Origin: Sipunculus nudus
Taxonomy: Eukaryota; Annelida; Sipuncula; Golfingiida; Sipunculidae
Length of the DNA: 64,000 bases
NCBI GenBank assembly: GCA_026874595.1
Contig: CM049308.1
Span: 49,588,124 to 49,652,123, forward strand
Reading direction: 5' to 3'
A program made the translations under genes and the position numbers. Below, in pieces: positions 2,099 through 59,000 of this stretch. The first letter of the stretch is position 1. Every line of letters starts with the position of its first letter. A model generated the notes under the pieces. That model ran no database searches. It was not told the origin of the DNA and saw only the letters and a list, made by a program, of their open reading frames with translations.

Positions 2099-2776
2099 TC
2101 ATAAATATCTCGATAAGCAAATAGCAAGTACATTGTCTTTCCCTTTAATGTGTTTGATTTCAAGATTTTAATCCTGTAAAAACAAACTCCATCTCAGCAA
2201 TCTTTGATTTTTACACTTCAACTTGTCCATGAACGTGAGGGGATTGTGATCACTGAAGACAATGATAGGCTTGACTGATGAAGTAACATAAACTTCAAAA
2301 TGCTGCAATGCCAAAATCAAAGCCAAACATTCTTTTTCAATAGTGGAGTAGTTTTTCTGGTCCGCATTAAACTTTCTTAAGAAATAACAAATCGGATGAT
2401 CTATGCCATCATTGCCTTCTTGTAACAACACAGCACCAGCAGCAGTATCACTAGCATCTACAGCTAACCTAAGAGGTACAGAAAAGTCTGGAGCTGCTAA
2501 AACTGGTGAACTTTGCAGAATTGCTTTCAAATTCTGAAACGCATTTTCACACTGAACATTCAATACAAACTTTTGTTTCATCTTCAACAAATTAGTCAAA
2601 GGTTCAGCTACAGCAGAAAAATTTGGACAAAACTTCCTGTAGTATCCAACTATACCAAGAAAACGCATTATTTGCATTTTGTTATCTGGTCTAGGAAATG
2701 CAGAAATAGCACTTATTTTAGCATCAACAGACCCTGCCCTACTACATGACCCAAAAATGTTACTTGTGCATGACAA
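2099..2776 (-). pseudogene. RNase H domain of Ty3/gypsy pol (C-terminal end of pol)
   Basis: RNase H cleaves the RNA strand of the RNA-DNA hybrid in reverse transcription. The frame contains an RT connection segment (FLGIVGYYRKFCPNFS), then RNase H motifs LAVDASDTAAGAVL (first catalytic Asp), YSTIEKECLAL (catalytic Glu) and VFSDHNPL (Asp). It ends with a HIKGKDNV tail just before the stop at about 2099. The polypurine tract and LTR follow within ~130 bp, so RNase H is the last pol domain here. A frame change separates it from the upstream RT. Confidence 0.85.
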
Positions 2777-3660: not shown

Positions 3661-3664
3661 TTCC

Positions 3665-4990
3665 TCAGCAGGTTCTTAAGGTCCTGTTGTTGTTGTACGG
3701 TAAGGTGTGACAGTTTGGCATCCAGGTTGTTAAGCACGTTGAGTTTTTCAGTGGTACTGTACCACACTGAATGTCTACATCACACTTACAATCAGCATCT
3801 ACTTTAACTGGGTCAGGGTCAGTTTTAACACAATTAACAGCAGTAACATTTTGCACAACATCTGATGTGCTATTTCTGTCATGATATGGTTTCAACATGT
3901 TAACATGGCACAGTTGTTTCTTCTTACGCCTATCTGGTGTCAACAGTATGTAATTTAAATCACTGACTTTCTTGTCAACAATGTAAGGACCAAAATACCT
4001 AGCTTGCAGAGGTCTGCCAGGGATGGGAAGTATGGCAAGGACCTTATCACCAGGTTCAAACGTCCTACTTACAGTGTGCTTGTAATAATTTGTTTTCATT
4101 TTACTTTGTGCTGATTTTAGATTTGACTTTGCAGTCTCACAAGCATTGTGTAGTTTAGTGCGACAGTCTGAGACATACTGCAACAAACTAAGAGAATCAG
4201 AATTTTCACACAAGAGTTTTTTAAGCAGTTTCAGTTGACCGCGAACTGAGTGTCCAAAAACAAGTTCAAAGGGACTGAAACCCACAGCAATAGTTGGATT
4301 CCTTCATCCCAGTCTTTCTGTGTGTCATAGCAATAGGTCCTAATCATGTTTTACAATGTCTGATGAAAACGCTTGGCGGCGCCCTGACTTTCAGGATGGT
4401 ATGGCGAAGAGCTGTACTGTTTTATACCTAGTTCCAGCATAACTTGCTGGAATAAGCCAGACATCAAATTAGACCCTTGGTCAGACTGGACGGATTTTGG
4501 TAATCCAAAAGTTGTAAAAAAAACTTGGTCAGAGCTTTGACAACACTTTTGGCATTAATTTAGCGCAATGGTATTGTCTCAGCGAACCTGGTAGATGCGC
4601 ACATAATTGTCAGCAAGTACTCATGTCCAGATTTTGTTTTGGGCAGTGGTCCAACACAATCAACAATAATCCTACTAAAAGGATCCTCGAAAGCAGGAAT
4701 AGGCCTAGTGGGGCCTTAGAAGGATTATGATCGGGCTTGCCTACCATCTGGCATGTAAGGCATGATTTACAATATTGTACAACATCTTTCCGGAGGTTAG
4801 GCCAATAGAAGTGTGTGTTAACTTTCTGATAAGTAATATTTTTACCTAAATGGCCAGACAAGAAGCCTCATGTGCCATTCTTGGAATTTCATTGCGAAAG
4901 TTTGTGGGCATTACCATTTGATGTTTGATGCCCCACTGTATCAGCACATACATCAGGTGGTCGCCATTTACGCATAAGCACTCCATTTTA
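3665..4990 (-). pseudogene. Integrase of the Gmr1-like element
   Basis: Integrase joins retrotransposon cDNA to host DNA. From 5' to 3' on the minus strand there is an H2C2 zinc finger (GHLGKN..., THFYWP, CKSCLTCQ, about 4860-4740), then a core whose first Asp lies in IIVDCVGPLP (~4665) and second in SDQGSN (4468-4485). The Glu lies in PESQGA (~4378-4395). A 206-codon open C-terminal section (3665-4285) includes a GPY/F-type module (GPYIV). Several frameshifts separate these blocks. The whole gene precedes RT, the key oddity of this element. Confidence 0.8.
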
Positions 4991-5279
4991 ACATAGAAAC
5001 AAACTGGGTTCTGTGACAGTTCATCTTAGAAACTGCTCTGGGAAACAAACATGAAATATCAGGGTCCTTATGCTGTTCCGCTATAAGTTCTGACCTTGAA
5101 AATGTTGTATCCTGTACGGGCGAGTCGTTAGATGAGTCACTAGTGAATTACAGAGTGTTATTATCTGGACCATTATCCTCATGTGTGTTTTTCTTGGCCA
5201 TAGATCTAGTTACAGCACATGAAGGATACAAATCAGGAATTTCCTGACTTTCAGGATCAGTGTCCTGATCAAGTGACCG

Positions 5280-28901: not shown

Positions 28902-29031
28902 ATGGATCTATGCTGGACATCTGTCGGCTGCTGGGCTGTTGGTGCCTACTGTGTGATACAGCTGGTACGTTTTGCTCTTGGAGATGCAGATCTCAGTCTA
29001 TTATACTATGAGATGTTTGGAAAGCCTGTCT
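28902..29031 (+). CDS. DHRS7: DHRS7 coding exon 1
   Basis: ATG at 28902 begins directly after a good acceptor (tttctctaccag), implying an untranslated upstream exon. It encodes the membrane anchor ([12 protein letters not shown]) and the family signature [15 protein letters not shown]. The length before the cofactor loop matches human DHRS7, supporting this ATG. The donor is t|GTGAGT at 29032; phase 1. Confidence 0.88.
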
Positions 29032-35000: not shown

Positions 35001-38000
35001 CATATAGATCACCTGCCAAGAGTGGAAGACCCCTATCATTTTTGAGGTCACGAGGTCAAAGGTGAAGGTCACAGGAGCCATCTGTCCAAAAATTAGTTTC
35101 TGGATGATAATGCCTGCTTTTATTGATGTATGGATTTCAAACTTGACTTGTATATGTCCCATTGGAAAAGCAAGCCCCGAATTGATTTTGGGATTATGAG
35201 GTCAAAGGTCAAGGTCACAGGACACATCTTCAAAAAGATGTGGATGCATTTTCAGCCAAACATTTCATCTCAGACATTTCATCTTGCACATACAGTTCCC
35301 CTGCCAATAGAGGAAGACGCCTGTCAATTGTGAGGTCACAAGGTCAAAGGTGAAAGTCACAGGAGCCATCTGTCCAAAAATTAGTTCCTGAGATGATAAT
35401 TCAAGCTTGGATTAATATATGGATTTCAAACCTGACTTATATATGGCCCATCAATAAATCTAGACCTCTATTGATTTATATATAAAAGTGGATGATCAAT
35501 ATCAATTTTGGGGTCACAAGGTCAAAGGTCAAGGCCACAGGAGCCATCTGTCCAAAAATTAGTTTCTGGATGATAATTCCTGCTTTTATTGATGTATAGA
35601 TTTCAAACTTGACTTATATATGTCCCATTGAAAAAGCAAGACCCCAATTGATTTTTGGGTCATGAGGTCAAAGGTCAAGGTCACAGGACCAACATCTTCA
35701 AAAAGATTGTGGATTGATAGATGGAAGAAAAAATAATTGCTTGCCAAGTGTCAGTATATACTGCTAAAAATGGGGGCTTATTCTTAAAGGGGGGGGCCTA
35801 CTATGTCTGGGGATACTCTGGCACCTGCGGTGCCAAGAAATATCTAGTTCACTATGTTTTAACCAGACATATATGATAAGAATTTATGGCAATGTAGAAA
35901 GTTTAAACACAATTGGCATATAGGTTCTGCAACAATTTTACTAGTTGTGAATCGCAGCCCATGATGTCGCAGGTCATGCTTGGCAGCTGATCGTCATGAC
36001 CCACGGGTCACTTGCTTCTATAAATTGACACACCAGTGACCTTAACCTTCATCTGCAAGGGCAAATTTGCTGAAATCTTGAATCATTGTTTTAAAAGAGT
36101 GCATATTTTCCCCCTAATGTATTGGGATTGTCCAAGCAGGGGGAGGGAGGAGACATCTGTTTTTTGCTGAAAAAACAGAGCAACTCTAGTTATTTAATTG
36201 AATAAAATCTTGACAGTTGAGTACGCGTGCATGTGAGTATTGCAATATTAAGTGATACATGTATTTTATGCAGTTGAATATCATTTGGATGTTTGTTGGT
36301 GCCTTTTTTTCAAATTGACTTTGTTTGTTGTGTCAGCTTGCTTGGCAGGTAAAGTGGTATGGATCACAGGGGCATCAAGTGGTATTGGAGAGCATCTGGC
36401 CTACGAGCTGGCTGCAGCCAGGTGTAAACTGGTCCTCTCTGCCAGGAGACAGCCAGAGCTAGAGAGAGTCAAAAAACAGTGTCTGGGTAGGTTGTCTTAG
36501 TTAAATCTCCTTAGACTAAGCTGAATAAAGCCAAGAAACAGTGTCTGGGTAAGTTGTCTTTGTTAAATCTCCATAGACTAAGCTGAATAAAGTCAAGAAA
36601 CAGTGTCTGGGTAGGTTGTCTTTGATAAATCTCCATAGACTAAGCTGAATAAAGTCAAGAAACAGTGTCTGGGTAGGTTGTCTTTGTTAAATCTCCATAG
36701 ACTAAGCTGAATAAAGTTAAGAAACAGTGTCTGGGTAGGTTGTCTTTGTTAAATCTCCATAGACTAAGCTGAATAAAGTCAAGAAACAGTGCCTGGGTAG
36801 GTTGCCTTTGTTAAATCTCCATAGACTAAGCTGAATAAAGTCAAGAAACAGTGTCTGGGCAGGTTGCCTTTGTTAAATCTCCATAGACTAAGCTGAATAA
36901 AGTCAAGAAACAGTGTCTGGGTAGGTTGCCTTTGTTAAATCTCCATAGACTAAGCTGAATAAAGTCAAGAAACAGTGTCTGGGCAGGTTGCCTTTGTTAA
37001 ATCTCCATAGACGAAGCTGAATAAAGTCAAGAAACAGTGTCTGGGTAGGTTGCCTTTGTTAAATCTCCATAGACTAAGCTGAATAAAGTCAAGAAACAGT
37101 GTCTGGGTAGGTTGTCTTTGTTAAATCTCCATAGACCAAGCTGAATAAAGTCAAGAAACAGTGCCTGGGTAGGTTGCCTTTGTTAAATCTCCATAGACTA
37201 AGCTGAATAAAGTCAAGAAACAGTGTCTGGGCAGGTTGCCTTTGTTAAATCTCCATAGACTAAGCTGAATAAAGTCAAGAAACAGTGTCTGGGTAGGTTG
37301 TCTTTGTTAAATCTCCATAGACTAAGCTGAATAAAGTCAAGAAACATTGCCTGGGTAGGTTGCCTTTGTTAAATCTCCATAGACTAAGCTGAATAAAGTC
37401 AAGAAACAGTGTCTGGGCAGGTTGCCTTTGTTAAATCTCCATTGACTAAGCTGAATAAAGTCAAGAAACAGTGTCTGGGTAGGTTGCCTTTGTTAAATCT
37501 CCATAGACTAAGCTGAATTAAGTCAAGAAACGGTGTCTGGGTAGGTTGCATTTGTTAAATCTCCTTAGACTAAGCTGAATTAAGTCAAGAAACGGTGTCT
37601 GGGTAGGTTGTCTTTGTTAAATCTCCATAGACTAAGCTGAATTAAGCCAAGAAACGGTGTCTGGGTAGGTTTCCTTTGTTAAATCTCCATAGACTAAGCT
37701 GAATAAAGTCAAGAAACAGTGTCTGGGTAGGTTGCCTTTGTTAAATCTCCATAGACTTGGCTGAATAAAGTCGAGAAAGAGTGTCTGGGTAGGTTGCCTT
37801 TGTTAAATCTCCATAGACTAAGCTGAATAAAGTTAAGAAACAGTGTCTGGGTAGGTTGCCTTTGTTAAATCTCCATAGACTAAGCTGAATAAAGTCAAGA
37901 AACAGTGTCTGGGTAGGTTGTCTTTGTTAAATCTCCATAGACTCAGCTGAATAAAGTCAAGAAACAGTGTCTGGGTAGGTTGTCTTTGTTAAATCTCTAT

Positions 38001-41000
38001 AGACTAAGCTGAATAAAGTCAAGAAACAGTGTCTGGGTAGGTTGCCTTTGTTAAATCTCCATAGACTAAGCTGAATAAAGTCAAGAAACGGTGTCTGGGT
38101 AGGTTGTCTTAGTTAAATCTCCTTAGACTAAGCTGAATAAAGTCAAGAAAAGGTGTCTGTGTAGGTTGTCTTAGTTAAATCTCCTTAGACTAAGCTGGAT
38201 AAAGCCAAGAAACAGTGTCTGGGTAAGTTGTCTTTGTTAAATCTCCATAGACTAAGCTGAATAAAGTCAAGAAAAAGTTTCTGGGTAAGTTGTCTGTATT
38301 AAATCTCCATAGATAAGTGCTGGAGAAAGTCCAGAAACAGTATCTGGGTAAGTTGACTGTATTAAATCTCCATAGACAAGTGCTGGAGAAACAGTGTCTT
38401 GGTCAGTTGTCTTTATTAAATCCCCATAGACAAGTCCTGGGGAAGCTATGTCTCGGTAAGTTGTCTTTATCAAATATACATAGACAAGTGCTGAAGAAAT
38501 TCAGAAAACGCTTCTTCTACAAATTCTTTTCATGACCAGTAAATCTTGCTAGACAAGACCAGACTAAGTCAAGAAACAGTGTTTGTAAAGGTTATTTTTC
38601 ATTTCCCACCAGACAAGTTTGTATAAACAAATAAGTAAATATGTCTCCCCTCCCAAAGGGGGAAGACATATTGTGTTTAGTCTGTCTTCTGTCATCTGTG
38701 TCAAACCTTGTGAACGCAATAACTTATGAACAGCTCAACAGTTTTTCAGGGAATTTTATATTTAAATTGTTTCTACCAATATCTCGGACAAGTTCTATAA
38801 CTGGTGACCTTGACCGTCAACATCATCGTCAAATAGGCCGAAACAGAATAATTTGTGAACCCCATTACTTCAGAAGTAGCACATATTTTTTCCTCAAATT
38901 TGGAACACTTGTTTTTATTAAGTCCCTTGAGGAGTTCGAAAAACTGGTGACCTTTACCTGGATATTCAAGGTCAAATCAGCCAAATTAGAAATTATATTT
39001 GAATGCTATTACTTTTGAACCACTTGATATATTTTCATAAAATTCAACTTGTGAAATGTCTCTACCAAAATCTAGGACAAGTTAAAAATCTGGTTGGGTT
39101 GAATAAAAATTTGTTGTGAACCCTATAATTGTATCCGCCAAAACAAAGTTTTGTGGATACTATGTTTTTGAACGGGTTCCTCCGCCGCCACATTCATTTC
39201 CGGAGAACTCCACTGAGACTACTGGATGGATTTTTCCGAAACTTACACCAATTATCCGGTCACATGTGAACTGGTGCTTAACCAATTGGCCTTGACCTCT
39301 GACCTTTCCTCTCTGCCCAGCGTCCATTTGTGCATCTGTTTCCACACATAAACCCACATATCTCGGGAACTGTTTGACCGATCGAGAAAAAATTTTGTAC
39401 AAATGTAGCCCTTGGATAGCTTTATAACATACATAAAAAATGGTGGCGCCACCTGCAACCATGTTTGCACAGTGTCCATTGTTTCAATAGTTTAATTGTT
39501 CACAAAACTTACATACTATGTGTGAGCAAAGCATGTAACATGTGCCACAAAGTCAATAACGCCACCTGGTGTTCACTTTCAGCATTAATATCAATCAGTC
39601 CTGCATATTGCCACATCCTTGTCCCTTTTCAGATGATCAGGATTAAATAATAATTACTTATGCTGTAATAAACTCTTCAGCATTACTTATAATTATAAAA
39701 AAAATTACTTTTGCTTAAATGAACTGTTCATCACTATTTTGTCACTTACTGTGAAATATGATCACTTTTAATTTACACAAAGTCTCTAAAATGACTTGGT
39801 GTTCACAGTCCCTATTTTCTCCCAGGGCCTTGTTGGCAGTTCATGTGGCATTAATGGTTCTCTGGGGTTGCCTGTCTCATATGTCCTACAGGCCTCACAT
39901 TTCTGTATGTAGTTCTTTATGTCACTGTTCATACCTGGCCAGTATAGGCATTCTCTAGCTCTCCGCAGACATTTTTCTATACCTAAATGTGCCTGATGTA
40001 CTCTATCTTTCATTTCATCTCTTAGACTTCTGGGATTGACCGCACGTTCACCCCTAAGAATAATCCCATCATGGACAGAATGTTCATCACGCATACTGTG
40101 ATATGGCAACACTTGCAGTGGGAGGTTATGTTTCTCCTCTGGCCATCCTGTTTGAATCACTGACTTCAGTATCTGTAAATCATCGTCACTGTCTGTGTGT
40201 GCTTTAATTTTCTGTAGTCGTTCAGGTCTAACTGGCAAGAACTGAACCATGTTGATCTGCTCAAATTCACTGATTTTACCATCATGGGGCAAATACGAAC
40301 GTGACAACATATCAGAAGAAACAAACATATTCTGTCCCTTTCTGTACTTTATTTCAACATTGTAGCCATGTATCCGTAGGAGCATTCCTTGCAATCTCCT
40401 TGGCGCTGCATGCATGGGCTTCTTTGTGATTGATTCTAATGGTTTGTGATCAGAGTACACAATGGTCTTAAGCGCAAATACATACTGATGGAATTTCTCT
40501 AGCAAGTATACAATGGCTAACATCTCTTTCTCGATTTGCGCGTATCTTGTCTCTGTTGGCGTCATAGCACGACTTGCATATGCGATGGGACGGCCACACT
40601 GCATAAGTACTGAGCCTATACCACTCTGGCTTGCATCACACTCAATAGTCAGTTCTTTAGATGGATCATAGTAAGCCAGTATTGGGGCCTGAGTGACAAG
40701 AGTTTTTATTTCTTGCATAGCCCATTCCTGTATTTCTGTCCAGCACCACACGCTGTCTTGTCTTGCTAGCGCTCTCAAGGGTTCCATTGTATCTGACAGT
40801 TTTGGTAAGAATCGCGCCAAGTAATTGACTGTTCCTTGTAGCCTCTGCACCTCTTGTGCATTGGATGGGTTTTGCATCTCTAGGATGGCTTTGATTTTCT
40901 CACTGTCTGGTTTAAGCCCTTCACTTGAAATACAGTGTCCAAGAAAGGAGATTTCACCTGTACAAAACTGGCATTTACTTTTGTTCAAACGTATACCCTT

Positions 41001-44000
41001 CTCCTTGCATCTTTGTAATAGGGCTCTCAGTTTCTGGTCATGATCCTTGTTAGCTTGTTCAACATCATCTCCAGCTCCAAAGATGATGATGTCATCTGCG
41101 ACACAAATTACTCCATTTAGACCCTCCAGGGCCATATTTAGCCTTTTTTGAAGGATTTCAGAGCTAATGTTCAGTCCGAAGGGTAGACGGAGCCACCTGA
41201 ATCTACCGAAGGGGTCACAAAAGTTGTAAGCCGGCTACTTTCATCATCCAACAGACAGTGCCAGTAACCATTCTGTAAATCTACTTTTGTGAACACTTTT
41301 GCCTTGGCAAGTTGTGGCAACACATCATCTATTACAGGTAAGGGATAAATTTCTCTTTTGAGAGCTTTGTTCAATGCTTGCGGGTCCAAGCAGATCCGGA
41401 GGTCATTGTTCCTTTTCACACTTATAGTCATCTGGGAAACCCAGTCTGTGGGTTCGTCAATGGGTGAAATGACCCCTGAGGCAACCATGTCATCAAGTTT
41501 CTGTTTTAATTTGACTTCTAAGCCAATTGGTACACATTTTGGCTTAACTGAGCTAGGAGTTGCCTCTGAATTTAGAGTAAAGTGCACTTTACCAGGAAGG
41601 ATTCCTAGTGTTTTTGGGTCTCCTGTTATGACATCATCATATTCTGTTATGATGTCATGTCCTGTTACACTGTGCAGCAAGTGAAAGTTATCATAGTTCA
41701 CTGTGATCAGCTTCATGGCTCCAACTGCCTTTCTGCTTATAAGGGGAGTCAGATCTTCGAGTACTACTTGGAATTCAACATTGTACTTTTTCTTGTTTTT
41801 TTGGATTTCTCACTGTGAGCCTCTTTTTGCCCAAGGGCTTTGAAGTACCCTTATTCCACATCTGCAATGTTACATTTGTTTCCTCCAGTTCCTCATCTAA
41901 AACATACTTTCTGGGAATGATATTGACTTCAGCACCACAGTCAACTTGAAATTTCACATGTTTATTGTTCTTCACAATGATCATGTCTGCATATATGGGA
42001 CCATCACAGCTTGTGGTTTTATCTTTAGCCACTCTGGATATGTCAGTGACTACATCAATTGTATATTCTGGACCGGATGAGTCAGTATCACCTTCATCTT
42101 CAACTCTATGCACCTTTCTGTTAGTTTAAGTTGGACAGCAGACTGCAAAGTGGTTTTTTTCTCTGCACTTGTTAAAAGACTTTCCCCATGCAGGGCACAT
42201 TTCCTTTTTTCTTTGATGACTCCTGCCACAAAACTTACACCTCAGTACTAGGGAGGTTTTGTTGTGAGAGTATTGAGCTTGTTTGGGCTGTTTTGCAACT
42301 GATGTAGCTAGGCTAACATTCATTGACTCTAACCTCTGTTTAGTGGCCTCAGCCCCTTTACATATGTCTATAGCAGTCTTCAAAGTCAACTTTATTGTTT
42401 GTAAGAGCATTTTGCGGGTTGAATTGTCCTGGATCCCAGTGACTAACCGGTCTCTAATCAGTGAATCCCTCAAACAGTCACAAAAGTTACACACACTTGC
42501 CAGTTCTCTGAGGGCTGATACATAGGATTCTATACTTTCATCTTCATTCTGTTCCCTCTTATTAAATTTATACCTTTCATAGGTCTCATTTGTTTCACCT
42601 ATTATGTGTTCATCAAACTTTCTAATGATGGTAGCAATATCTTGTTTGTCCTCAACAGGAGGGTTGCCATCTGGTCCTGCGGGTGCAAACACAAGACTGT
42701 TGTATATCTTAATTCCCACGGTCCCAGCACAATTTAGAAACACTGCACATTGGTATTCTTTATCCCTTTTATCCAGTTCAGATATGATCTGATAGTTCTT
42801 AAATAGCTGTTTGAACATTTTCCAGTCCTCTACCATATTGGTACCAAGTTGCAAGGGAGGTGGTGTTTGCACAGACAGGGGTGCATAACATGCTTGACTA
42901 GCCATCATGTTAATGTATCTGCAGTGTCAGTTTACATGCAGAGCACACAGTTGAATCAGTCACTCAGGATCATGGGACAAATCCGGCAGGAACTGGTATT
43001 TCCCCAAGTATTCAAGATCAAATCTGATGTTAAGTCAACAGTCTCTAGCTAACAGGAGCACTGAGTAGAATACAGGCAGGTTCTGTATCTCAAATGACTT
43101 CATATCATCTTTCATGGCGGGCCACAGAGGTGGGCAATAATAGAGGAAGCTACCGCATCAGGAAGAAAAACACATACTCACAGCTTGACAGTCTCTATTC
43201 ACCTGTCCTAGGTGTTTCCTGGCACATTTGGCTTCTGGTTACACTGCTGCCACCATGTTTCAATAGTTTAATTGTTCATAAAACTTACATACTATATATG
43301 TGTGAGCAAAGCATGTAACATGTGCCACAAAGTCACTAACACCACCTGGTGTTCACTTTCAGCATTAATATCAATCAGTCCTGCATATTGCCATATCGAG
43401 TTCGCGTTTTGTCCTGATTGACCTACTTTTGACTGTTTTACGGCTCCTTAACTTAGAAAATTTCATGAAAAATAGAAATTTTCATGACAAATACACATGT
43501 ATGGACTTTTTTTCGCAATGCCTCCAGATATTAGCCTGATTTTTGGTGTGTGGGCAGATATTGACCAGTTACAGATTGAGTTCGCGTTTTGTCCCGGTTG
43601 ACCTACTTTTGACTGTTTTACGGCTCTTGAACATAGAAAATTTCATGAAAAATAGAAATGTTCATGACAAACACACATGTACGGATTTTTTTTTCGCAAT
43701 GCCTGCAGATATTGGCCTGATTTTTTGGTGTGTGGGCAGAAATTGACCAGTTACAGATCAAGTATGCGTTTTGTCCGGATTGACCTACTTTTGACTGTTT
43801 ACAGCTCTTGAATATAGAAAATTTCATGAAAAATATAAATGTTCATGACAAATACACATGTACGGACTTTTTTTCGCAATGCCTGCAGATATTGCCCTGA
43901 TTTTTGGTGTGTGGGCAGATAATGACCAGTTAAGGATGGAGTTTGTGTTTTGTCTCGGTTGACCTACTTTTGACCGTTTACAGCTCCTAAACTTAGAAAA

Positions 44001-47000
44001 TTGTATGAAAAATAGAAATTTTCATGACAAATACAAATGTACAGACTTTTTTTCGCAGTGCCTTCAGATATTGGCCTGATTTTTGGTGTGTGGGCAGATA
44101 ATGACTAGTTACAGATCGAGTTCGCGTTTCATCCCAGTTGACCTATTTTTGACCATATGACAGAGATCCTGAACATAGAAAATTTCATGAAAGAAAGAAA
44201 TTTTTATGAAAAATGCACATGTATGGGCTTTTTTTCACAATGCCTGCAGATACTGGCCTGATTTTTGGTGTGTCGCTTGATAATGACCCGTTACAGATCA
44301 AGTTTGCATTTAGCCCTTGTTGACTTACTTTTGACCATACGACACCTCCAGAACTTAAAAAAATTTTACAAAATTTAACAAATGTTTCTAATTTGCCCCA
44401 GGCGGGGGCATTCGTGTCGTTCCGACTCATTTAGTTTCCTTTATATTTCAGTGAGTGGCCGTTTGACAGAAGAAGACGTCATTTTCCTCTGTGTTTTAGT
44501 GGGTAGGAGTGTGACAGAAGAGAATTGACCTATTTTCACTTTATATTTCAGTGAGTGGCCGTTTGACAGAAGATGACATCATGGTGCTGCCCCTGGATAT
44601 GCTGGATACTGCTGCCCACAAAACTGCCACAGAAAATGTACTCAAACAGTTCGGACATGTAAGCTATAATGATCAGTGAGACTGAATGAAAGTATACCCA
44701 AATGTCTTTATTTCACATTATCAGAGTTAAATAATCACATTAGGCAGTTCAGTTTTATGTGTTACTGAATGTGAATGAATGATAAAACATAATAACTGGG
44801 ATGGATATTGTCTCAGGTCCAGGTATTACATTAATAAGATACATTTTTATAGTACAACTCATTGTAATGGTCACAAAAATAGAACATTTGTAGAAAGGAT
44901 GGGTCTGTTAAGAAACTCTCTGGTAAATTCTGGTTTGACACTCAATCTGCTCTAACCATCATTATAAAGACTTGTCTGAGCATATAACTTATGTAAATTA
45001 ATCCAGATAATTAAATGATAATGCAGTTATTACCACAGTTTATGGAATTTTACAAATCAGGTGCTGAAATATTTTTTGAAAGAGTATTGAATATTTTATG
45101 TAACTGAATTAGATTCATATAAATCCTGTTTTTGTAAACAAATGGTTTTTAGCTCAGCTGACTATAAGTCATCTGAGCTATAGTCGTGGTCCATTGTCCG
45201 TCGTCCGTCCGTCTGTCCGTCCGTCCGTCCGTCCGTCAGTCCGTCCGTCCGTCCGTCCGTAGATGTGGCACGTTTTGAAACCGTAAGACTTAGGAATCCA
45301 AAATTTGGCATAATGTTAGCTGTCCCCAAGATCTCCTACCAAGCCGAAAACTGGGTCTTTGCGACTTTGTTCCTTTGAGAAATTAAGGAAAAACCTCAAT
45401 TTTTTATTAAAAACCTATTTTCACACTTTAGGGCTGCCTAATATCAAAACCACTCATCTGTTTTTCCTCATATTTACCATAAATATTCCTCTATATAGTT
45501 CCTATGTACATGCCTGAAATTATGTCTGTATTATATAATTTAAGAAAGTTATGGGCCAGAACATAATGCATTTTGTAAAAAATCAGGAAAGATATTTGAT
45601 CACTTAACACAAAACTTGTTAAAGCTATGGACTTTTTTTCAAGTAATATAACTTTAATTAATCAAAATTAAATTGTATACCCAAAATTAGATCAAAATCT
45701 TTTAAATTTTTTAAAATATTAGCAAAAACAAAAAATTGGTACCTTAAATTTTGCCTAACTTTGACCATGGCACGTTTTTTTCCTGTAAGTACTGTGGATT
45801 TAATTTTCTCAGCATGTTTTTGTTAGCATTTTGTCTGTTAACACCAAAAATTTGAAACCAGTTGATCAAAAACTGTAGATTTTATTCAAGTTTTCAAGCA
45901 CCATGTAACATATTGTTTACATCAGGCTAGTGTTATGCAGTTTGCAAGAGCTCAGCTCCCCAGCTTAAGCTCTCAGTTCCTAAAATCTGGCATACAATTA
46001 GATGTCTCTAAAATTCCCTACCATGCCAAGAATTTGGTCACTAGGACTTAATACCTTTGAGATATTAATGAAAAACTTCATTTTTCAATTAAAAACCCAT
46101 TATTACATTTCAATACTGCCTAATATCAAAACCACTGATCTGACTTAAATCATATATAATATACATGTTTTTCAATACATTCTCTGTGCACATGCCAGAA
46201 ATGATGTTAGTATTGCGTAATTGTTTTAAGTTATGGGCCCAAACAATATGCACTTTGTAAAAAATCAAGAAATATATTTACTCCCTTAACAAGGGGCTTG
46301 CTGAAGCTAGAGATTTTTTGTCAGTGATGTAAGATTATTTAATCAAGATTCAATTGAATACCCAAAATTAGTTCTGAATTTTTAAAATTTTATAAGTTAT
46401 TAGTATAAATATAAAATTAGTACCTTAAATTTTGCCCAACTTTGACCATTTCACTTTTGTTTAATGTGAGCTCTGTTTATATAATTTTCATATCATGCAC
46501 ACACATAGATTTCAGCTTTTTAGTTTAGAAAGCTGAAAGAAATTGGCCAAAAATTGTAGCTTTTATTAATGTTTTTATGAGACCATGTCAGACCTTGGCT
46601 CTCTCCAGCCACTCTTGAGTCACCTGTATGTTGACCTTGTTGAACTTTCAGCAAATTATGCACGCTTGAGGCGAGGCAGATACCGGGGCAGCAAGGCAGC
46701 TTATGGCCAGCCACAGTTGATCCAGGTGTCCAACCCAACTCATCAAGTAGTTTTAACCAACAACATAACAATAAATTAATCAATTTTTATTGGTTTTTAA
46801 TAACAAATTAAAGAAAAATAGAAAAGGAATTTGTTAGTTTATATTAATAGGGAAATAACTTGCAGTTACTGATGATATAAGAATCTTGTATTGATAGATA
46901 GAATGTCACGTATTCCAAATAACACCATGCAGTCACCTATGGCATTTTTCAGTTCAATTTTAATAATAAAAAAATAAATCATATTATTCATTACTAATCA

Positions 47001-50000
47001 TTAGGGATCATATGAAGGAAATTAATGATAGACAAAGATGCAGTTGATAATATTAATCTAGATTCCTACTGTGTCTAGTGTGTACATTGATGTGAAATTA
47101 GTCCCATATAAATATATCACATTTATTTTTTTTTAATATAAATAAAAGCCATAAAACCAGGTACTTATGATCATTATTTAAATGTGTGAATTTTGTACAT
47201 TCTGGATTCTCAACACCATTGTTTGGTGAAAACTGAATAAATACCAGACATGGTGGGAACACTTTGCAATTGTATTTAAATACGGATATGAATATGTACT
47301 CCATTATAAAATTTCTTGCATAAAGAATGGGAATTCAGGAAAAAATGAAAGTATATGAATACCAGTGCAAATACTTTCCAAATGTATTCATGAATGCATT
47401 CATGAATATATTCTTTAATATTATTTTAATAATCATTTCAGTTATATTTCATTTTAAAAATCATACAATTCTCTTATTATTTTTAATAAAAATTATATCT
47501 GGGACAATATTTGTAATTTTTTTAATAATTGTTAAAGTCTTATATTATATGTTCTGCTTATAAGTTATATGGCCAAGTCAAAATCTGTGTGACAATAGTA
47601 CTCCATTTGTTAATAAAATAAATGAAATCAATTCTCTTCTCTGTCTCCAAAGGTACTATCAAAATCATACATAAGCTTAACAACAACAACTCATAATACA
47701 GCTTATACTTATTACCACACAAAACCAGCATGTGCCTCATTTCTAAATCATATTTTTTTATCATATATAACAGCTGAGCGCCGTGACCCATAGGTCCCTT
47801 GTTATTAAATATGTTTTTGTAGATTGATATATTGGTAAATAATGCTGGGCGGAGCCAGCGTGCCATGGCAGCAGATACAGAGTTTCAAGTAGATAAAGAT
47901 ATGATGGACATAAATTTCTTCAGTGTTGTGTCCCTCACCAAGGCAGTCCTTCCTCATTTCTTAGAGCGAAGGCAGGGACATCTGGTGGTCACAAGCAGCA
48001 TCGCAGGGAAAATGGGTATGTTAATCATGATCCTTAGAGGCAGAAATTCCTCACCTTCACATAACTTGATTTCATCTTCATAATAAATTACAGGTTGTCT
48101 GAACTGATGTATTTGCTACAAGTAGACGAAGGGTTTAACTTTATGTTAAAACACTTTAGTGTTCAACATAACTGTAAAGTCAGGGTGATTGAGCCATCCA
48201 ATCAGTTACAATTTAAGGAAGAAATCACTGATGAAACATCTGTAGATCTGAGTATAGTGGACAACTTTTTTTTAATGCTGAGAGAATATTGCAAGATAAT
48301 CTGTTCATATAAAGCTACGTGTACTTTGCCTATGTGAGTTCAGACTGACACTGTGGCTGTGTGTAATCTTGCAGGTGTGCCAGGATCAGCCACATACTGT
48401 GCTGCCAAGTTTGCCTGTCATGTATGTATGTTTTTTCTATTTTACAAAATGTTTTGAAGAATTCACACACACATACATATTTCTGTGATATCATTTGTAC
48501 ATATGGAAAGTACACAAAAAAAATGATGTAATATAAATAATTGACTAATGTGATCAGTGTAACAGTGATGCTTTTATGTTAAAATATCAGATGGGGATGC
48601 CTGATTATTGCATATATAAATATTAATTTGATAATTTATTTAACATTTTTTTTTTCTTAACTTTTTTTCAAAGTTGTGAACAGGGGAGAATCAGTGACTG
48701 CAGACTCAGTGACTGCAGACTCCTCGACTGCAGACTCAGTGACTGCAGACTCCTCGACTGCAGACGCAGTGACTGCAGTCTCATTGAATGCAGACTCAGT
48801 GACTACAGACTCAGTGACTGCAGACACAGTGAATCCAGACACAGTGACTGCAGATGCATTGAATGCAGACTCAGTGACTGCAGACTCAGTGAATGCAGAC
48901 TCAGTGACTGAAGTCTCACTGAATGCAGACTCAATGACTGCAGACTCGGCGACTTGAGACTCAGTGACTGCAGACTTAGTGAATACAGACTCAGTGAATG
49001 CAGACTCAGTGACTGCAGACTCAGTGAACGCAGACTCCATGAACTCAGACTCCATGAATGCAGACTCAGTGATCGCAGACTCAGTGACTGCAGACTCAGA
49101 GAATACAGACTCAGGGACTGCAGACTCAGGGACTGCTGACTCAGTGAAAGAAGACTCAGAGAATGCAGACTCAGGGACTGCTGACTCAGCGACTGCAGAC
49201 TCGGTGACTGCACACTTAGTGAATACAGACTCAGTGAATGCAGACCCATTGACTGCAGACTCAGAGAATGCAGACTCAGGGACTGCTGACTCAGAGACTG
49301 CTGTCTCAGTGAATGCAGACTCCATGAATGCAGACTCCATGAATGCAGACTCAGTGAATGAAGACTGCAGACGTGACTGATTCTTGTGTTCTTTAAGTTT
49401 TCAGTACCATGGTTTCAACATGAATGTTTCAGTTTGCATTGAGTTTCCTCAATCATAGCTACCGTAAAATCTCCACTTAAAACCGCGGTTTAATCAAGAA
49501 ATTCAAAATCTTGAAATCAGGTTGATTTCCTGAAAGCACTGTGCGGTTTATACTAGAAGGGTTTCCTGAATATCTTCCTGACAGACGTTGTTTTGGGCCG
49601 GCGCGTGGGCGATAACATTGCAACTTTCGAAGGCTGTTCTTAGCATGCATGGGCGCCGTGTGTAAATGTATTATTTACGATTATTTATTATTTATAAATT
49701 AAATATCGCTGATTAGTTTTCGTGTGATATATAACTTGTTATTAAATCTTGGTAATTGTCACCAAATAATACGTTTACATCAACCCTGCTGTTACACACA
49801 GCGGCCCACTTCGTTGGGAATGGTCAAGCAAAATTGAAATAAAAGCCTATTTTAACCCATTTGCGGCATTATTTAGCAATGATTATTTGTTTAAAACGTA
49901 AAATGAATAAAAAGCTGACATCGTAAAGAGTCACACAATGGCAGACGATCGTTTTAAAATCAAGTTTGAGTGCCGCCATGTGCTGAAACGCCCTGGTATT

Positions 50001-53000
50001 CTGCTAAGAATATTTTGAACAGCTGTACGCGGTGGGTGGTAAATAGAACAGCCATCTATTTCGTCCCAGCGTGCCTTGGGCGAACACTGCCTTGACAAAA
50101 TGGCTCTCCACACGGAAACTTTCTTCAGGTAAAAAACTTGCTCACCCGGACTGGCCACTTTAATTTTACCTTAAAATCACTCGTTTTCAAGCTACTTTCC
50201 TATACGTGCGTATCTCGACAAGGTAACTTCAGTTACTTTGATATTTAGTTGACCAGCGATGTTTTCAAACGCACCAGCATATTGTGACATGGAGCGATGT
50301 CAACGTACGATGTGACGATGATAATACCGAAGTAACCGGTATGAAAATGAGTTGAATCTTCCGAGTAATTCCAGAAAATGGAATTTTCATCAAAAATTAA
50401 GATTTCAAAATAATACTTTTAGAATTAAAATATACCGTGACTTGAAATGGATCAGCAGAATATTTTTTTCAATAATATATTGACAAATCAGTAGCAAACA
50501 AGAATACGGCACGGAATATAAAATCTGTATAACCAGGCAGAGGTTCACCGGCCCTTACGTCTTCCCAAACTTCATGCTTGAGTGACCCTGCAAAAAAGTG
50601 TTATCATTTGTTTAAATAAAATGCCCAAGGAATTTTTAAAGTGGACAGGAATGGCCGAGTCGCAACCTACGCGTGTTCATTTCTAGATGATAGCTTGATT
50701 GTGTCTTTTGTGAAATCATTCCGTAGCGAAAGTTGGTGCGGTTTAAAAGGGGGGTTCTTAGTATTTGAGCCCCTCGCGGTGTCTTGCCTGGAATTCTGGC
50801 GAAGTCTGGGTGCGGTTTTAATCGGAAGTGCGGTTTTAAGTGGAGATTTTACGGTACTATCTACAAACTGGACTTGACACATTTTGTGTTGGATTCCCTT
50901 TATCAGATTGGTTTGACTCCCTACAAACTGAACTTTGTAACATTTTGTGTCGTGATTTGGTTTCCTCAATCATGGCTACTCTCGACAAACTGGGCTTGTC
51001 ACATTTTGTGTTGGATTCCCATATAGGATTGGTTTGACTCCCTACAAACTGGACTTTGTAACATTTCGTGTTGGATTTTCTTAAATATGATTGGTTTAAC
51101 ACTCTACAAACTGGACTTGTCACATTTTGTGTTGTTTTCCTTTAAGGAATGGGTTGATTCCCAAAAAACTAGACTTTTCACTTTTTTTTGGTTGTATTTC
51201 CTTATAGGATTAGTTTAAACTACCTTCACACTAGGATTGTCACATTAGTGTTGGGTTTCTTTCTAGGGCTGATTTAACTACCTTCACACTGGGATTGTCA
51301 CATTAGCGTTGGGTTTCTTTATAGGGCTGATTTAACTACCTTCACACTGGGATTGTCACATTAGCGTTGGGTTTCTTTATAGGGCTGATTTAACTACCTT
51401 CACACTGGGATTGTCACATTAGCGTTGGGTTTCTTTATAGGGCTGATTTAACTACCTTCACACTGGGATTGTCACATTAGCGTTGGGTTTCTTTATAGGG
51501 CTGATTTAACTACCTTCACACTGGGATCGTCACATTAGCATTGGGTTTCTTTATAGGGCTGATTTAACTACCTTCACACTGGGATCGTCACATTAGCGTT
51601 GGGTTTCTTTATAGGGCTGATTTAACTACCTTCACACTGGGATCGTCACATAAGCGTTGGGTTTCTTTATAGGGCTGATTTAACTACCTTCACACTGGGA
51701 TCGTCATATAAGCGTTGGGTTTCTTTATAGGGCTGATTTAACTACCTTCACACTGGGATTGTCACATTAGCGTTGGGTTTCTTTATAGGGCTGATTTAAC
51801 TACCTTCACACTGGGATTGTCACATTAGCGTTGGGTTTCTTTATAGGGCTGATTTAACTACCTTCACACTGGGATTGTCACAATAGCGTTGGGTTTCTTT
51901 ATAGGGCTGATTTAACTACCTTCACACTGGGATTGTCACATTAGCGTTGGGTTTCTTTATAGGGCTGATTTAACTACCTTCACCCTGGGATTGTCACATT
52001 AGCGTTGGGTTTCTTTATAGGGCTGATTTAACTACCTTCACCCTGGGATTGTCACATTAGCGTTGGGTTTCTTTATAGGGCTGATTTAACTACCTTCACA
52101 CTGGGATTGTCACATTAGCGTTGGGTTTCTTTATAGGGCTGATTTAACTACCTTCACACTGGGATTGTCACATTAGCGTTGGGTTTCTTTATAGGGCTGA
52201 TTTAACTACCTTCACACTGGGATTGTCACATTAGCGTTGGGTTTCTTTATAGGGCTGATTTTACTTCCTTCACACTGGGATTGTCACATTAGCGTTGGGT
52301 TTCTTTATAGGGCTGATTTTACTTCCTTCACACTGGGATTGTCACATTAGCGTTGGGTTTCTTTATAGGGCTGATTTAACTACCTTCACACTGGGATTGT
52401 CACATTAGCGTTGGGTTTCTTTATAGGGCTGATTTAACTACCTTCACACTGGGATTGTCACATTAACGTTGGGTTTTCTTTATAGGGCTGATTAAACTAC
52501 CTTCACACTGGGATTGTCACATTAACGTTGGGTTTCTGTATAGGGCTGATTTAACTACCTTCTCACTGGGATCGTCACATTAGCGTTGGGTTTTCTTTAT
52601 AGGGCTGATTTAACTACCTTCACACTGGGATCGTCACATTAGCGTTCGGTTTTCTTTATAGGGCTGATTTAACTACCTTCACACTGGGATCGTCACATTA
52701 GCGTTGGGTTTCTTTATAGGGCTGATTTAACTACCTTCACACTGGGATCGTCACATTAGCGTTGGGTTTCTTTATAGGGCTGATTTAACTACCTTCACAC
52801 TGGGATCGTCACATTAGCGTTGGGTTTCTTTTTGGGGCTGATTTAACTACCTTCACACTTGGATTGTCACATTAGCGTTGGGTTTCTTTATAGGGCTGAT
52901 TTAACTACCTTCACACTGGGATTGTCACATTAGCGTTGGGTTTCTTTATAGGGCTGATTTAACTACCTTCACACTGGGATTGTCACATTAGGGTTGGGTT

Positions 53001-56000
53001 TCTTTATAGGGCTGATTTAACTTCCTTCACACTGGGATTGTCACATTAGCGTTAGGTTTCTTTATAGGGCTGATTTAACTACCTTCACACTGGGATTGTC
53101 ACATAAGCGTTGGGTTTCTTTATAGGGCTGATTTAACTACCTTCACACAATGATTGTCACATTAGCGTTGGGTTTCTTTATAGGGCTGATTTTACTACCT
53201 TCACACTGGGATTGTCACATTAGCGTTGGGTTTCTTTATAGGGCTGATTTAAATACCTTCACACTGGGATTGTCACATTAGCGTTGGGTTTTCTTTATAG
53301 GGCTGATTTAACTACCTTCACACTGGGATCGTCACATTAGCGTTGGGTTTCTTTATAGGGCTGATTTAACTACCTTCACACTGGGATCGTCACATTAGCG
53401 TTGGTTTTCTTTTTGGGGCTGATTTAACTACCTTCACACTGGGATCGTCACATTAGCGTTGGGTTTCTTTATAGGGCTGATTTAACTACCTTCACACTGG
53501 GATTGTCACATTAGCGTTGGGTTTCTTTATAGGGCTGATTTAACTACCTTCACACTGGGATTGTCACATTAGGGTTGGGTTTCTTTATAGGGTTGATTTA
53601 ACTTCCTTCACACTGGGATTGTCACATTAGGGTTGGGTTTCTTTATAGGGCTGATTTAACTTCCTTCACACTGGGATTGTCACATTAGCGTTGGGTTTCT
53701 TTATAGGGCTGATTTAACTACCTTCACACTGGGATTGTCACATAAGCGTTGGGTTTCTTTATAGGGCTGATTTAACTACCTTCACACTATGATTGTCACA
53801 TTAGCGTTGGGTTTCTTTATAGGGCTGATTTAACTACCTTCACACTGGGATTGTCACATTAGCGTTGGGTTTCTTTATAGGGCTGATTTAACTACCTTCA
53901 CCCTGGGATTGTCACATTAGCATTGGGTTTCTTTATAGGGCTCATTTAATTGCCTTAACACTTAGATTGTCACATTAGCGTTGGGTTTCTTTACAAGGCT
54001 GATTTAACTACCTTCACACTGGGATTGTCACATTAATGTTTGGTTCCTTTATAGGGCTGGTTTGATGCCCTGCGAGCGGAGCTGGTTCAGGAGAACATTG
54101 ATGTGACCATGGTTTGCCCTGGTCCTGTCTTCTCAGAAATTACCCAGCATGCATTCACAGAGAAATCAGGTCAGGTGAGTGTGGTAATTGGTGTCTGTGT
54201 CACTTAGTTTTGGCAAGATACTCATAATTAATGTTTGTTGGTAAAATAAGGTATCAGATTACTTTGTATAGACTCATGAAAGACTGGCACTCCTGTTGAA
54301 CTTCTTCTGCAAGAACTATATTAGAGAATTACCAGAAACAGAAAGAAGATACAAATCTGTTCACAGATTTGATGCTGGTAAGCCAGGGATCTATTAGATT
54401 TGAGAAAGCTTGTTTATGTGAATTAAATTGAGACATAATTTGTGTCAACTACCTTAAGATTAGTGACCATACAAGGACCATACAATAGTTGTTAAAACTG
54501 GCATCTTTTTACAAAGGATTGACACCAAACTGAGCTTGGAGCCAAAAATATCTTCTTGGTAAAGGCAAACAATAAATATACGAGCTATCCTCACCTGCCA
54601 GCAGGATATATACAGAGACTGCATTACCTTTTATTTAACCTAGAAATGTTGGTCAGTAGGTGGAAATTATATTTATATATCCTGTATATGAATCTTAGAA
54701 TGGTTTTAAAGCGAAAAAATTGTTTGTGTGTACACAAATTACATAAAACATAATTTGATGCCATGAAATACAAGGACATGTTGTTAAATTGTATTTAACT
54801 GAAATAAGATGTTGTGGTAGTTTACCCTGCTGTATTATCACTGAGACTCTGTCACCATGGTGATATGAGTTGATACCTGACCAGATTCAGAGAGAGTTGT
54901 TCACGTTTCTCCAGATACATGGTATAGCTGCCAAGCCAGGCGAGCGACGCATGGCCACTTCCAGGTGTGCCACTTTGATGGCTGTTGCTATGGCGAATCG
55001 TCTGGAAGAGGTGTGGGTGACCCTCCAGCCGATCCTCTTGTTCTCATACATCTACCAGTACATGCCTTCTTTGGGCAGATGGTAAGTGTGTTTCATAAAT
55101 GAGTTACAGTGGAGTGTTGTTTATCCGAACACTGTTTATTAAAAAAAATTGTTCATCCAAAAATTGAAAACTGAGAACTGAAATTGTGACTGTATATCTG
55201 AAACCCAAACAATACAAATTATGAAAAAATTGTACAATAGATTATCTAATTTCAAGCAAAGGTACAAGGATTACCAGAGATAAGTAATGCAGGTTAATTA
55301 GTGCACTCTTTTGAAGGCAGTGGCTGTAAAAACAAAATCCTGCTGGTCTACTGTCTGTTTCATGTATGTTGACTGCTGGTCTATTATAATAAAATTATTA
55401 TACAGCCGAGGCGGGAGGAATGGTCCAGATCAAACAAAAACAAATGTTACACAAGAAAATTACAGAAATAGTAATTCGTGATAGAACTGATGCCTTGATC
55501 ATGACTGGGCATAGAGTTCGACCACTAGCAGATTTTGTGTTTATGTGTGACTCAGAACTTCAATTGGCCAGGTTATTTCTGCTAAAAATTAGGGAATTTC
55601 AATTGTTTAGAATTGCAATGAAGTAATGCTCATCCTGATTTTACTCTGTTTCATTGCTGCTTATTATAACTGACCAAGTCAGTCACATAAATGCAAGTGC
55701 AAATTCTTTATGGCAATCTGACAATCTTTTGACATTGAGTGGGTCTCAGCGGAAGACTGGCAACCATGTGGAATAATTTATCTGAACAATCGTTTATCCA
55801 GACAAGCATCCTGTCCCCTTGTCCTTCAGATAAAGACAGTCTACTGTATCTTATGTTTGCATGGCTACTAACATTCTATCAGCCTAAGATTCCATTTGTA
55901 TGGTATAACCTGTTCAACCTGGCTCCACCTATTGCATGGACTTAATTTGTAACATAGAAACAAAAAACCTACATTCCAAAAAATTTAAGAAATCAAATTA

Positions 56001-59000
56001 ATTAAATGTTTCAACTCAACTTTTGGTAGTCATTGTCATAGGTCACATGCAACAAGACATAAAATTAGCTCTGAAAAACAGAAGCAGCAAAACCAAAGAC
56101 AGCCACTTAAGCAGGGATCTGTCAGATAGTTGGTTCCCCAGTAGGCATATAAAGGTCAAGTAAAAAGGGTACATTGAACACAGAAAGTGATATTTATCAT
56201 AGATGCAATTATTTCATGTTTTTATATGCCCTTCTTTGACGGGACATATTATGGTATACCCAACAGTCAGTTTGTCCCTCTGTCCATCCGCTTTTAGTGT
56301 CGTTGTGATAACTAACCAGGGCTTCAGTGGATTTTCACAAAACTAATAATCACTACTTACCAATAGATTATCTCTCTTGAGTTATGGGCATGGGCAAAAT
56401 CCATGCATATTTAATGAGGTCAAGAGATCACCAGGCTACTATATTGTGTTGTTGCAAAAAGTTACCAGGAACACAATGCAGTTGGGTGTTACTCAAGAGA
56501 AATATTAACAAATACAATATCTCACCGAAGTTTAATTCTTGGCAAAATCCATGCATATTTGATGAGGCCAGAGATCACTAGATTTTTGTTGGGTTGTCAT
56601 ATATAATAAAAAATCCAATGGATTTCCATGGTTTTTTATTTAATTTTATTATATAAATATTTACCAATAGGGTTTCTCACCTGAATTAAGTTCTTGGTAA
56701 AACACACATATGTTTAATAAGTTCATAGGTCAAAAGACATACAGTGGGTGTATTATGCACCATTTGCATGCTCTTTTTGTAAGTAACTAACAATTGAAAT
56801 ATTTAGATTATATAACTTTCTGGCTGCTAGCTTGTATGTCTTAAAATTAAATAAAGGATTCACTTAAGTCTGTGGCTTGTCACTGTGCACTGGATAAGTC
56901 TGAATAATTTTGGAAAAATATTCCTGACTTGTATTCAGTAAGCTTCAGAGCTATTAATAAAAAAAAATTTGTTTACATTAAGTTAAAGAAATAAGTACAA
57001 ACTGCAGCGCTTGAGATAAGATTGTTGTACTTTGTTCTTCACCCTGCTTTGTGTTAACCAATCCTGCTGTTAACCTAGCCAACTAACTCATGTTCATCTA
57101 GCCCACTTACTCACGTTCAACTAGCCCACTAACTCATGTTCATCTAGCCCAATAACTAATGTTCATCTGACCCACTAACTCATGTTCATCTAGCCCATTA
57201 ACTCGTGTTCATCTAGCCCACTAACTCACATTCATCTAGCCCACTAACTCACATTCATCTAGCCCAGTCACTCATGTTCATCTAGCCCACTTTCTCATGT
57301 TTACCTAGCCCACTTACTCATGTTCATCTAGCCCACTAACTCACGTTCACCTAGCCCACTTACTCATGTTCATCTAGCCCACTAACTCAAATTCATCTAG
57401 CCCAGTCACTCATGTTCATCTAGCCCACTAACTCATGTTCATCTAGCCCACTAATTCATATTCATCTAGCCCGCTAAATCACATTCATCTAGCCCACTAA
57501 CTTACATTCATTTAGCCCACTTATTCATGTTCATCTAGCCCATTAACTCGTGTTCATCTAGCCCACTAACTCACATTCATCTAGCCCACTAACTCACATT
57601 CATCTAGCCCAGTCACTCATGTTCATCTAGCCCACTTTCTCATGTTTACCTAGCCCACTTACTCATGTTCATCTAGCCCACTAACTCATGTTCACCTAGC
57701 CCACTTACTCATGTTCATCTAGCCCACTAACTCAAATTAATCTAGCCCAGTCACTCATGTTCATCTAGCCCACTTTCTCATGTTCATCTAGCCCACTAAC
57801 TCATGTTCATCTAGCCCACTAATTCATATTCATCTAGCCCACTAAATCACATTCATCTAGCCCACTAACTTACATTCATTTAGCCCACTTATTCATGTTC
57901 ATCTAGCCCATTAACTAGCATTCATCTAGCCCAGTAACCCACATTCATCTAGCCCTGTTCACTAGCGTTCATTTAGCTATCTAACTCACATTCATCTAGC
58001 CCACTAACTCTTGTTCATCCAGCCCACTAACTTGTGTTCATCTTGCCCACTAACTCGCATTCATCTAGCCCACTAACTCATGTTGATCTAGCCCACCAAC
58101 TCATGTTGATCTAGCCCACTAACTTGTGTTCATCTAGCCCACTAACTTGTGTTCATCTAGCCCACTAACTCATGTTTATCATGCCTACTAACATGGTGTT
58201 CATATTGCCCACTAATTCGCGTTAATCTAGCCCACTAACTCATGTTCATTTAGCCCACTTAGCTCATGTTCATCTAGCCCACTAACATTATATCTGCCCT
58301 TACTTACATTTAGCATGTGTTTCCCTGCTTGTTGCATGTTTTCTTTTATTGTCTTTTATAGGCTTGGGAGGAAGATTGGTGTAAAAATAGTCAAGGCAAT
58401 GCGTGATGGAAAATTGTAGAAAGTCTCCCAGAATTCTAGTAGAACACATATGAATGTGGACTGATTTCATTAGACCCATGTAATCTTTCACCAAGGCAAA
58501 GCAAGATGTAAAAACATCTTCCATGTGTTGTTCCATTTTTTATGTAAATTTATAAAACCTTAATGAAAGAAAATATAAATGTATATGAGCAATCAGCATG
58601 ACAAGAAAGTGATAACTTGTACTTCAGCTGTTTTATTAAGAATTCACTTGGTACTCATAGAAAGAAACATAAACTCAGGTAGTCTGGTAAATGATGATAA
58701 TGATCATTTTAATCAGCTTACCAGATTTGTTGAAATGTGCCCAACCTGTCGAGATTACAGGGATTCAATCTTTGAAATGGTCTCAGAGGAGCGAATTTGG
58801 AGTCACAAATGTTCAAAAAGTTACAAATCTCTTATTGGTTGATTGAGATTAAAAGCCATCCGGGGATGCTTTTTAGTGTCTGCATAACACCTGCCCATGG
58901 AGGTCACATCAATCCAGTGATAAATTAAGCTGCTAACATTAATGTGACATCAAACTCTCAGCTGTACCCATAGTCTGATTTTCAACCGACTGCAGGAAAA

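Follow-up and report, generated by a model that had tools for sequence, protein, structure and literature searches.

An array of decoy acceptor junctions before exon 6 of a short-chain dehydrogenase gene in Sipunculus nudus: probably a tolerated splice-junction minisatellite of the mirage type

In the sipunculan annelid Sipunculus nudus, a short-chain dehydrogenase (SDR) gene carries, directly before the true start of its exon 6, 52 tandem units of about 58 bp that imitate the junction between intron 5 and exon 6. The gene lies on the forward strand of the stretch analysed here (the window: 64,000 nucleotides (nt), positions 49,588,124 to 49,652,123 of the 97.9-Mb contig CM049308.1, in the 1.43-Gb genome assembly GCA_026874595.1) and comprises eight coding exons between 28902 and 58419, seven GT-AG introns and a complete frame for a product of 323 amino acids (aa); its exon limits, and so its junctions, were set from the reading frame and the splice consensus. 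Judging from the sequence, we consider it highly probable that the array is a splice-junction minisatellite of the type called "mirage" in lancelets, that it is tolerated and that the array itself is most likely without function.

Tandem Repeats Finder (TRF) places the array at 51218-54063, with a period of 58, 49.0 copies and a 96% match, and degenerate copies stand in a row from 50861 on. When the units are walked back from the true exon 6, 52 of them are found upstream, spanning 51027-54054, and the exon start (GGCTGGTTT) follows directly after the last one. An earlier note, made from the letters of this DNA, had described a ~50-copy, 58-bp array at this acceptor with the true exon as its last member, which is borne out. 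Two further statements of that note hold for most units only. The exact core that it saw in each unit (TTTCTTTATAG) is present at 43 of the 52 sites and altered at the others, an AG being in register at 48; the stop at codon 2 that it read in every decoy is found, in the true phase, in 48 of the 52, while the remaining four stop at codons 9, 19, 24 and 64. All 52 decoys consequently meet a stop in the true phase, and the unit length is not a multiple of three (58 mod 3 = 1).

The units are not equally alike along the array. Full identity with the consensus is seen in 14 of the 52, and inner units mostly show 0-3 differences (the ungapped counts of 7-8 in four 59-bp units are inflated by one inserted base), while the first four units differ from the consensus at 20 or more ungapped positions and the last two at 8 and 4. 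Such diverged edges around a uniform centre are the pattern that would be expected from exchange homogenising the centre. By eye, rare variants also recur about ten units apart: TTTTTGG stands for the acceptor at 52836 and 53417, and variants with TTAGGG and ACTTCC are found at 53010-53067 and 53591-53648. This may reflect the duplication, inside the array, of a block some ten units long.

The likeness of the unit to the junction reaches well into the exon. A test with the AG as its anchor compared a unit with exon 6 over the initial 36 nt, and 6890 AG sites on both strands of the window, array excluded, served as controls. The older, divergent units at the upstream end of the array (Table 1) are nearer to exon 6 in coding sequence than the young units are: their consensus is identical to the exon at 21 of 36 nt and scores 33 with BLOSUM62 over 12 codons in frame, neither value being reached by any of the 6890 controls. 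Taken singly, three older units match at 21, 19 and 17 of 36 nt (reached by 1, 3 and 47 controls) and score 29, 27 and 17 in BLOSUM62 (reached by 0, 0 and 3), and a young unit matches at 19 nt (3 controls) and scores 14 (2 controls). These results support a unit that would be a copy of the junction extending about 36 nt, or about 12 codons in frame, into exon 6, and not just 9 nt; the earlier proposal that the exon 6 junction seeded the unit is strengthened by this in-frame similarity. In the exon part, five states unite older units with the true exon and set them apart from the young unit (TGG rather than TGA among them), and three unite the true exon with the young unit.

Other sources of the unit were considered and rejected. 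Whole-genome DNA searches with young and older units (1.43 Gb; best candidates scored, very common words skipped) list units at the exon 6 locus and, among their matches, none elsewhere, which argues against the dispersed repeat that the earlier note had named as the alternative to a seed in exon 6. An origin from a paralogue is rejected because a genome protein search (124 of 194 candidates scored) shows no close paralogue among the 100 matches listed, in which only exons of the gene itself exceed 51% identity. Tandem or mutually exclusive exon duplication is rejected because the unit holds about 36 of the 120 nt of exon 6 and no GTRAG is present in the array.

The splice signals were compared across the units. 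The decoys are near the true site in their AG and pyrimidine tract (9 pyrimidines of 12 in 45 of the 52, with a range of 7-10, versus 10 of 12), but most have an upstream AG and lack the TTAAT. At the true site, TTAAT fits YTNAY, with its A at about -19, and there is no other AG for 56 nt. By contrast, another AG stands just 11-18 nt upstream in 46 of the 52 decoys, among them 43 of the 48 whose own AG is intact; TTAG takes the place of TTAAT in 41, and TTAAC is found at that position in two only, at 52486 and 52544. According to the scanning model, as given in the part of the source available, the first AG past the branch point is used and AGs closer than ~12-15 nt are bypassed (PMC1431707). 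Under this model, an upstream AG at 11-18 nt should make the decoy TATAG sites poor acceptors. Additionally, the 3198 nt of the exon 6 array contain no GTRAG donor, which makes exon definition of any unit unlikely; exon 6 itself has GTGAGT. The decoy adjoining the true site, at 53997, reads TTTACAA/GG. Most decoys thus look disarmed.

Several observations weigh against the mirage reading as a whole. Beyond its first 9 nt, the young unit is matched by 149 of the 6890 controls. When single units are aligned with exon 6 locally and without an anchor, the similarity lacks significance: 78 to 1515 of 2000 shuffles reach the score, and many blocks of the window score as high as the units do. The AG-anchored test was used for this reason, and the similarity claim rests on it and on an older-unit consensus that was written by hand. 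The sharing of five states as against three is weak, and the polarity from older to younger units that it indicates is likely, with weak support. As to the splice signals, the branch-point reasoning is based on the YTNAY motif, not on a measured branch point, and TTAG and TGA, being shared by descent, each count as one event and are no proof of selection.

The exon 6 array is not the only junction repeat in this gene. The exon 2 donor has also been multiplied (Table 1), and its 33 sites read GTAGGT (23), GTAAGT (5), GCAGGT (4) and GTCAGT (1), with GT in 28 and GC in 4 of the 32 decoys. These 32 decoy donors, together with the 52 units at exon 6, support the earlier note's claim that a donor and an acceptor of one gene were amplified independently; absent from that note was a smaller third case, at the acceptor of exon 3. 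Four further long arrays within or next to the gene (at 28203, 29169, 48687 and 57068) show no junction similarity above that of the best random window. Against the exon-6 unit, the true junction scored 29 and one random window 30; the random windows included the older array part, from which this window is likely to have come. When five intron arrays are placed at random, two or more abut an exon in ~0.4% of trials. Within the exon 2 array (36487-38499), TCTCCATAG occurs 25 times, each copy followed by a donor-like site some 34 nt further on (spacing by eye), so that many of the units might in principle serve as a tiny exon.

The age of the exon 6 array can be judged from a terminal inverted repeat (TIR) DNA transposon nested in its older part. 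The joined flanks of the transposon align contiguously with a sibling array unit, and the left flank scores 33 against an array unit, a value reached by none of 1000 random windows. At least 34 other full-length copies of the transposon (95-98%), plus several partial ones, were found with 40 of 1344 candidates scored. Given copies this alike, its position within the older array implies that the array predates a fairly recent transposition. The array given as 50860..54060 in the earlier note is therefore present, but it is older and longer, with a remnant also beyond the transposon at 49460-50856.

Repeats of this kind are already known from lancelets. Mirage minisatellites have been described there in Adh3 and the globins BflGb6 and BflGb9, with similar ones in PGBD5, and they are reported, in the parts of these papers available, not to disturb regular splicing (PMC3087553, PMC3902484). 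As far as those parts portray them, the lancelet mirages resemble the S. nudus repeats in several respects: tandem units span real exon-intron boundaries (those of exons 2, 3 and 6 here, as placed by frame and consensus); both 5′ and 3′ boundaries are involved (the donor of exon 2, the acceptors of exons 3 and 6); many, although not all, units keep their signals (AG in 48 of 52 at exon 6; GT in 28 of 32 and GC in 4 at exon 2); and the centre is homogenised while the cluster boundaries are diverged. As for undisturbed splicing, an intact frame is what is seen in the present gene; as for the length instability of mirages between haplotypes or in the soma, the present view is of one assembly. On the same partial basis, the S. 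nudus case differs in having 52 units, versus 6 and 3 in two BflGb6 haplotypes, in affecting three junctions of one gene, and in that a stop, and an AG replacing the branch-point-like motif, are found in most decoys. No mirage outside lancelets was found in the literature searched, mainly titles and abstract starts with few subscription papers, the nearest cases there being a human donor minisatellite (IFI6) and human boundary repeats; within that literature, what is new is the size, the host and the recurrence in one gene.

In humans, Turri et al. reportedly described in 1995 a minisatellite of IFI6 (6-16) that provides multiple splice donors. Its unit is 12 bp long. Two downstream repeat units are used in real mRNAs, according to the available portions of two reports (PMC4526556, PMC2572611). 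The exon 2 array is similar in its repeated donor sites within a minisatellite; unlike the IFI6 donors, so described, those of exon 2 are known from sequence alone, and the exon 6 array lies at an acceptor. In human segmental-duplication genes, internal tandem repeats that lie at exon-intron boundaries are stated, in what was available of that study, to elongate exons or introns or to create introns (PMC2812944). Minisatellite expansion at exon-intron boundaries is common to both cases as far as that text goes, but the exon itself appears unchanged here. The available portions of reports on intron minisatellites in an abalone (PMC6905558) and in earthworm metallothionein genes (PMC12783039) do not state that they span a junction, and the intronic minisatellites linked to alternative splicing in Caenorhabditis elegans, as presented in the part available, are a separate matter (PMC4039745).

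To explain the array, we propose that a segment joining ~22 nt from the end of intron 5 to ~36 nt from the start of exon 6, as the similarity indicates, was tandemly duplicated. The duplicates would have decayed into the older array, and one derived unit would later have been amplified and homogenised to ~48 copies, probably by slippage or unequal exchange, as the graded divergence and the deviating edges suggest. The array could persist because splicing would still pick the last junction, which alone adjoins a real donor, as exon definition would favour, and retains a motif like a branch point within a stretch free of AG. Stop codons would mark mis-spliced transcripts for decay. With mostly TTAG for TTAAT, no GTRAG donor and mostly an in-frame stop, the rare error may thus yield a transcript fit for nonsense-mediated decay.

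Alternatively, the array might be regulatory, its acceptors binding the splicing machinery and slowing the removal of intron 5, or diverting transcripts to decay, and so tuning expression. The retention of AG and of a stop at codon 2, each in 48 of 52 units, and pyrimidine tracts little different from the true one (9 of 12 in 45 of 52 versus 10 of 12) would suit such a role, but the second AG 11-18 nt upstream in 46 of 52, the survival of TTAAC in only 2 of 52, the lack of a GTRAG donor for any decoy exon and the undisturbed splicing reported for lancelet mirages in the parts of those papers available (PMC3087553, PMC3902484) do not. A decoy function in RNA is unlikely, and we regard this regulatory account as improbable. 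Still less probable is that the units are raw material for intron gain or a shift of the exon boundary, becoming an exon or a moved junction; a model of this kind has been proposed for lancelet globins, in the portion of the paper available (PMC3087553), and the TCTCCATAG that recurs in the exon 2 array, each time in a unit ending in a donor-like site, would fit it, but each of the 52 exon-6 decoys, read in the true phase, meets a stop, and a GTRAG donor is lacking in all.

Copy number in a 96% identical array is always uncertain, and the repeat number might have been inflated or collapsed in the assembly; the divergence gradient, the diverged edges, the nested transposon and the separate cases in other genes make an assembly artefact very hard to credit. 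Least credible is an ordinary intronic minisatellite that happens to abut exon 6, with the exon-like GGCTGATTT as coincidence: non-junction intronic arrays are common here, four of them lying in or beside the gene, but the anchored in-frame similarity over ~36 nt of exon 6 and the rarity of two or more of five arrays abutting exons (~0.4% of random trials) lead us to reject a purely intronic origin.

A survey of other genes of the genome, suggested in the earlier note, was made with tyrosine-kinase and Myosin_head models. It comprised 95 exon hits (58 kinase, 37 myosin) and 190 edges, which are profile edges and not exact exon edges, and covered part of the matches listed (152 kinase, 75 myosin); some loci were picked because their exons stood close together or the frames reported were large, and two kinase loci (L042, L056) lie on small contigs and are possibly bacterial. 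Junction-spanning copies were found at 2 of the 190 edges, both in myosin genes, and at none of the 58 kinase hits. One is an acceptor array (L075, local 3127-3680; G000 C9:5930300-5934200) with a unit of ~82 bp and five decoys before the true exon; the decoys carry TACAG/AT (the slash marking the junction), the true junction being MKDERNYHIFYCML and one decoy MKDQRNHHILLCIL. The other, in a different myosin gene (L072, local 1710-1811; G000 C4:13957300-13959300), is a two-copy donor junction, GAAAAGTCCAG/GT. In a protein comparison, the eight best matches of a muscle-myosin exon of this genome (L093) are entries taken as scallop and squid (178-180 bits), by a small margin above vertebrate ones (174 bits and less). 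Applied with exact edges to the window gene, the blastn procedure flagged 3 of 16 edges, which are the three known junctions. A claim that junctions are hot spots was dropped, since 2 of 190 edges are explicable by random placement. The window gene shows an excess (3 of 14 edges, Fisher p 0.0024) that is biased, this gene having been selected for its arrays. It is rather doubtful, on these data, that junctions have been repeatedly amplified in this lineage (five junctions, three genes), with large expansions following a course of "disarm, then amplify", by which only a unit that has lost the branch point and gained an in-frame stop could grow harmlessly to dozens of copies.

Several survey candidates were not counted: at L061, L068 and L070 the copies have their ends in the intron, before or after the exon hit; at L065 there is a TA run; and at L060 two whole exons are alike across the acceptor edge. 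These L060 kinase exons (local 4254-4538 and 4896-5182) correspond to the same profile part and are 80% alike across that edge; they appear to be a tandem exon duplication and are possibly mutually exclusive. Large open frames in the family tables had been suspected to be open arrays, and four regions examined contained no such frames. A genome search for the SDR family was dropped from the survey, its yield being 19 genes without introns on small contigs, taken as bacterial. On small contigs such as C61-C90 and C137 there are SDR and kinase genes without introns, several of which score identically from one contig to another; they probably represent bacteria, symbiont or contaminant, in the assembly.

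The 323-aa product has an SDR domain (adh_short, E 7.4e-52), its solved-structure matches are assorted SDR enzymes, and we take the gene to be DHRS7-like. Its features are collected in Table 1. The last coding exon is present in two versions, 58362-58419 and 59747-59804, 1.4 kb apart and each preceded by an acceptor-like AG, which are possibly alternative last exons. In intron 5, a 15-bp, 45-copy array at 48687-49366 has long open stretches on both strands and no junction similarity. By eye, retrotransposon-like frames (pol-like of 482 and 212 aa, gag-like of 266 aa) occupy the minus strand of intron 2 at 39786-42926, and pol-like frames resembling them are seen near 2168-4303.

Table 1. Coding exons, junction repeats and transposon of the SDR gene, in window positions (a slash marks a junction)
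Feature	Position	Strand	Remarks
Exon 1	28902..29031	+	Start is the first ATG of the frame
Exon 2	36337-36486	+	Last part, 36465..36486, seeded the donor array
Exon 2 donor array	36487..38499	+	True donor GTAGGT at 36487, then 32 decoys; 62-bp unit of ~22 nt exon and ~40 nt intron
Exon 3 acceptor junction, two tandem copies	44435..44551	+	~25 nt intron and ~35 nt exon; upstream of true exon 3; second copy more diverged; one of the two found by blastn
Exon 3 (true)	44552..44658	+	
Exon 4	47823..48015	+	
Exon 5	48375..48421	+	Phase 0 at end; donor GTATGT
Left remnant of older array, beyond transposon	49443..49459	+	Minimum extent
TIR DNA transposon	49460-50856	+	1.4 kb; 27-bp perfect inverted ends; TA target; inside older array
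Older divergent units, exon 6 array	50857..51207	+	58-62 bp where walked, partly a 121-bp dimer
Young homogenised array	51208..54054	+	58-bp units, ~36 nt probably exon-6-derived and ~22 nt intron-end-derived
Transitional first unit of young array	51208-51266	+	
Last two units	53939..54054	+	Decoy acceptor between them, at 53997, is TTTACAA/GG
True exon 6 acceptor region, CACATTAATGTTTGGTTCCTTTATAG	54029..54054	+	TTAAT present
Exon 6 (true)	54055..54174	+	120 nt; phase 0; donor GTGAGT
Exon 7	54915..55081	+	
Exon 8, stop codon included	58362..58419	+	

The array extends the mirage phenomenon, described in lancelets, to another animal host by a very large case, and it shows a route by which the end of an intron may grow without transposons. 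With about fifty near-identical acceptors in one intron, it is also a natural test of 3′ splice-site choice, in which the sequence suggests the features (branch point, nearby AG and adjacent donor) that would let the spliceosome choose the last acceptor only.

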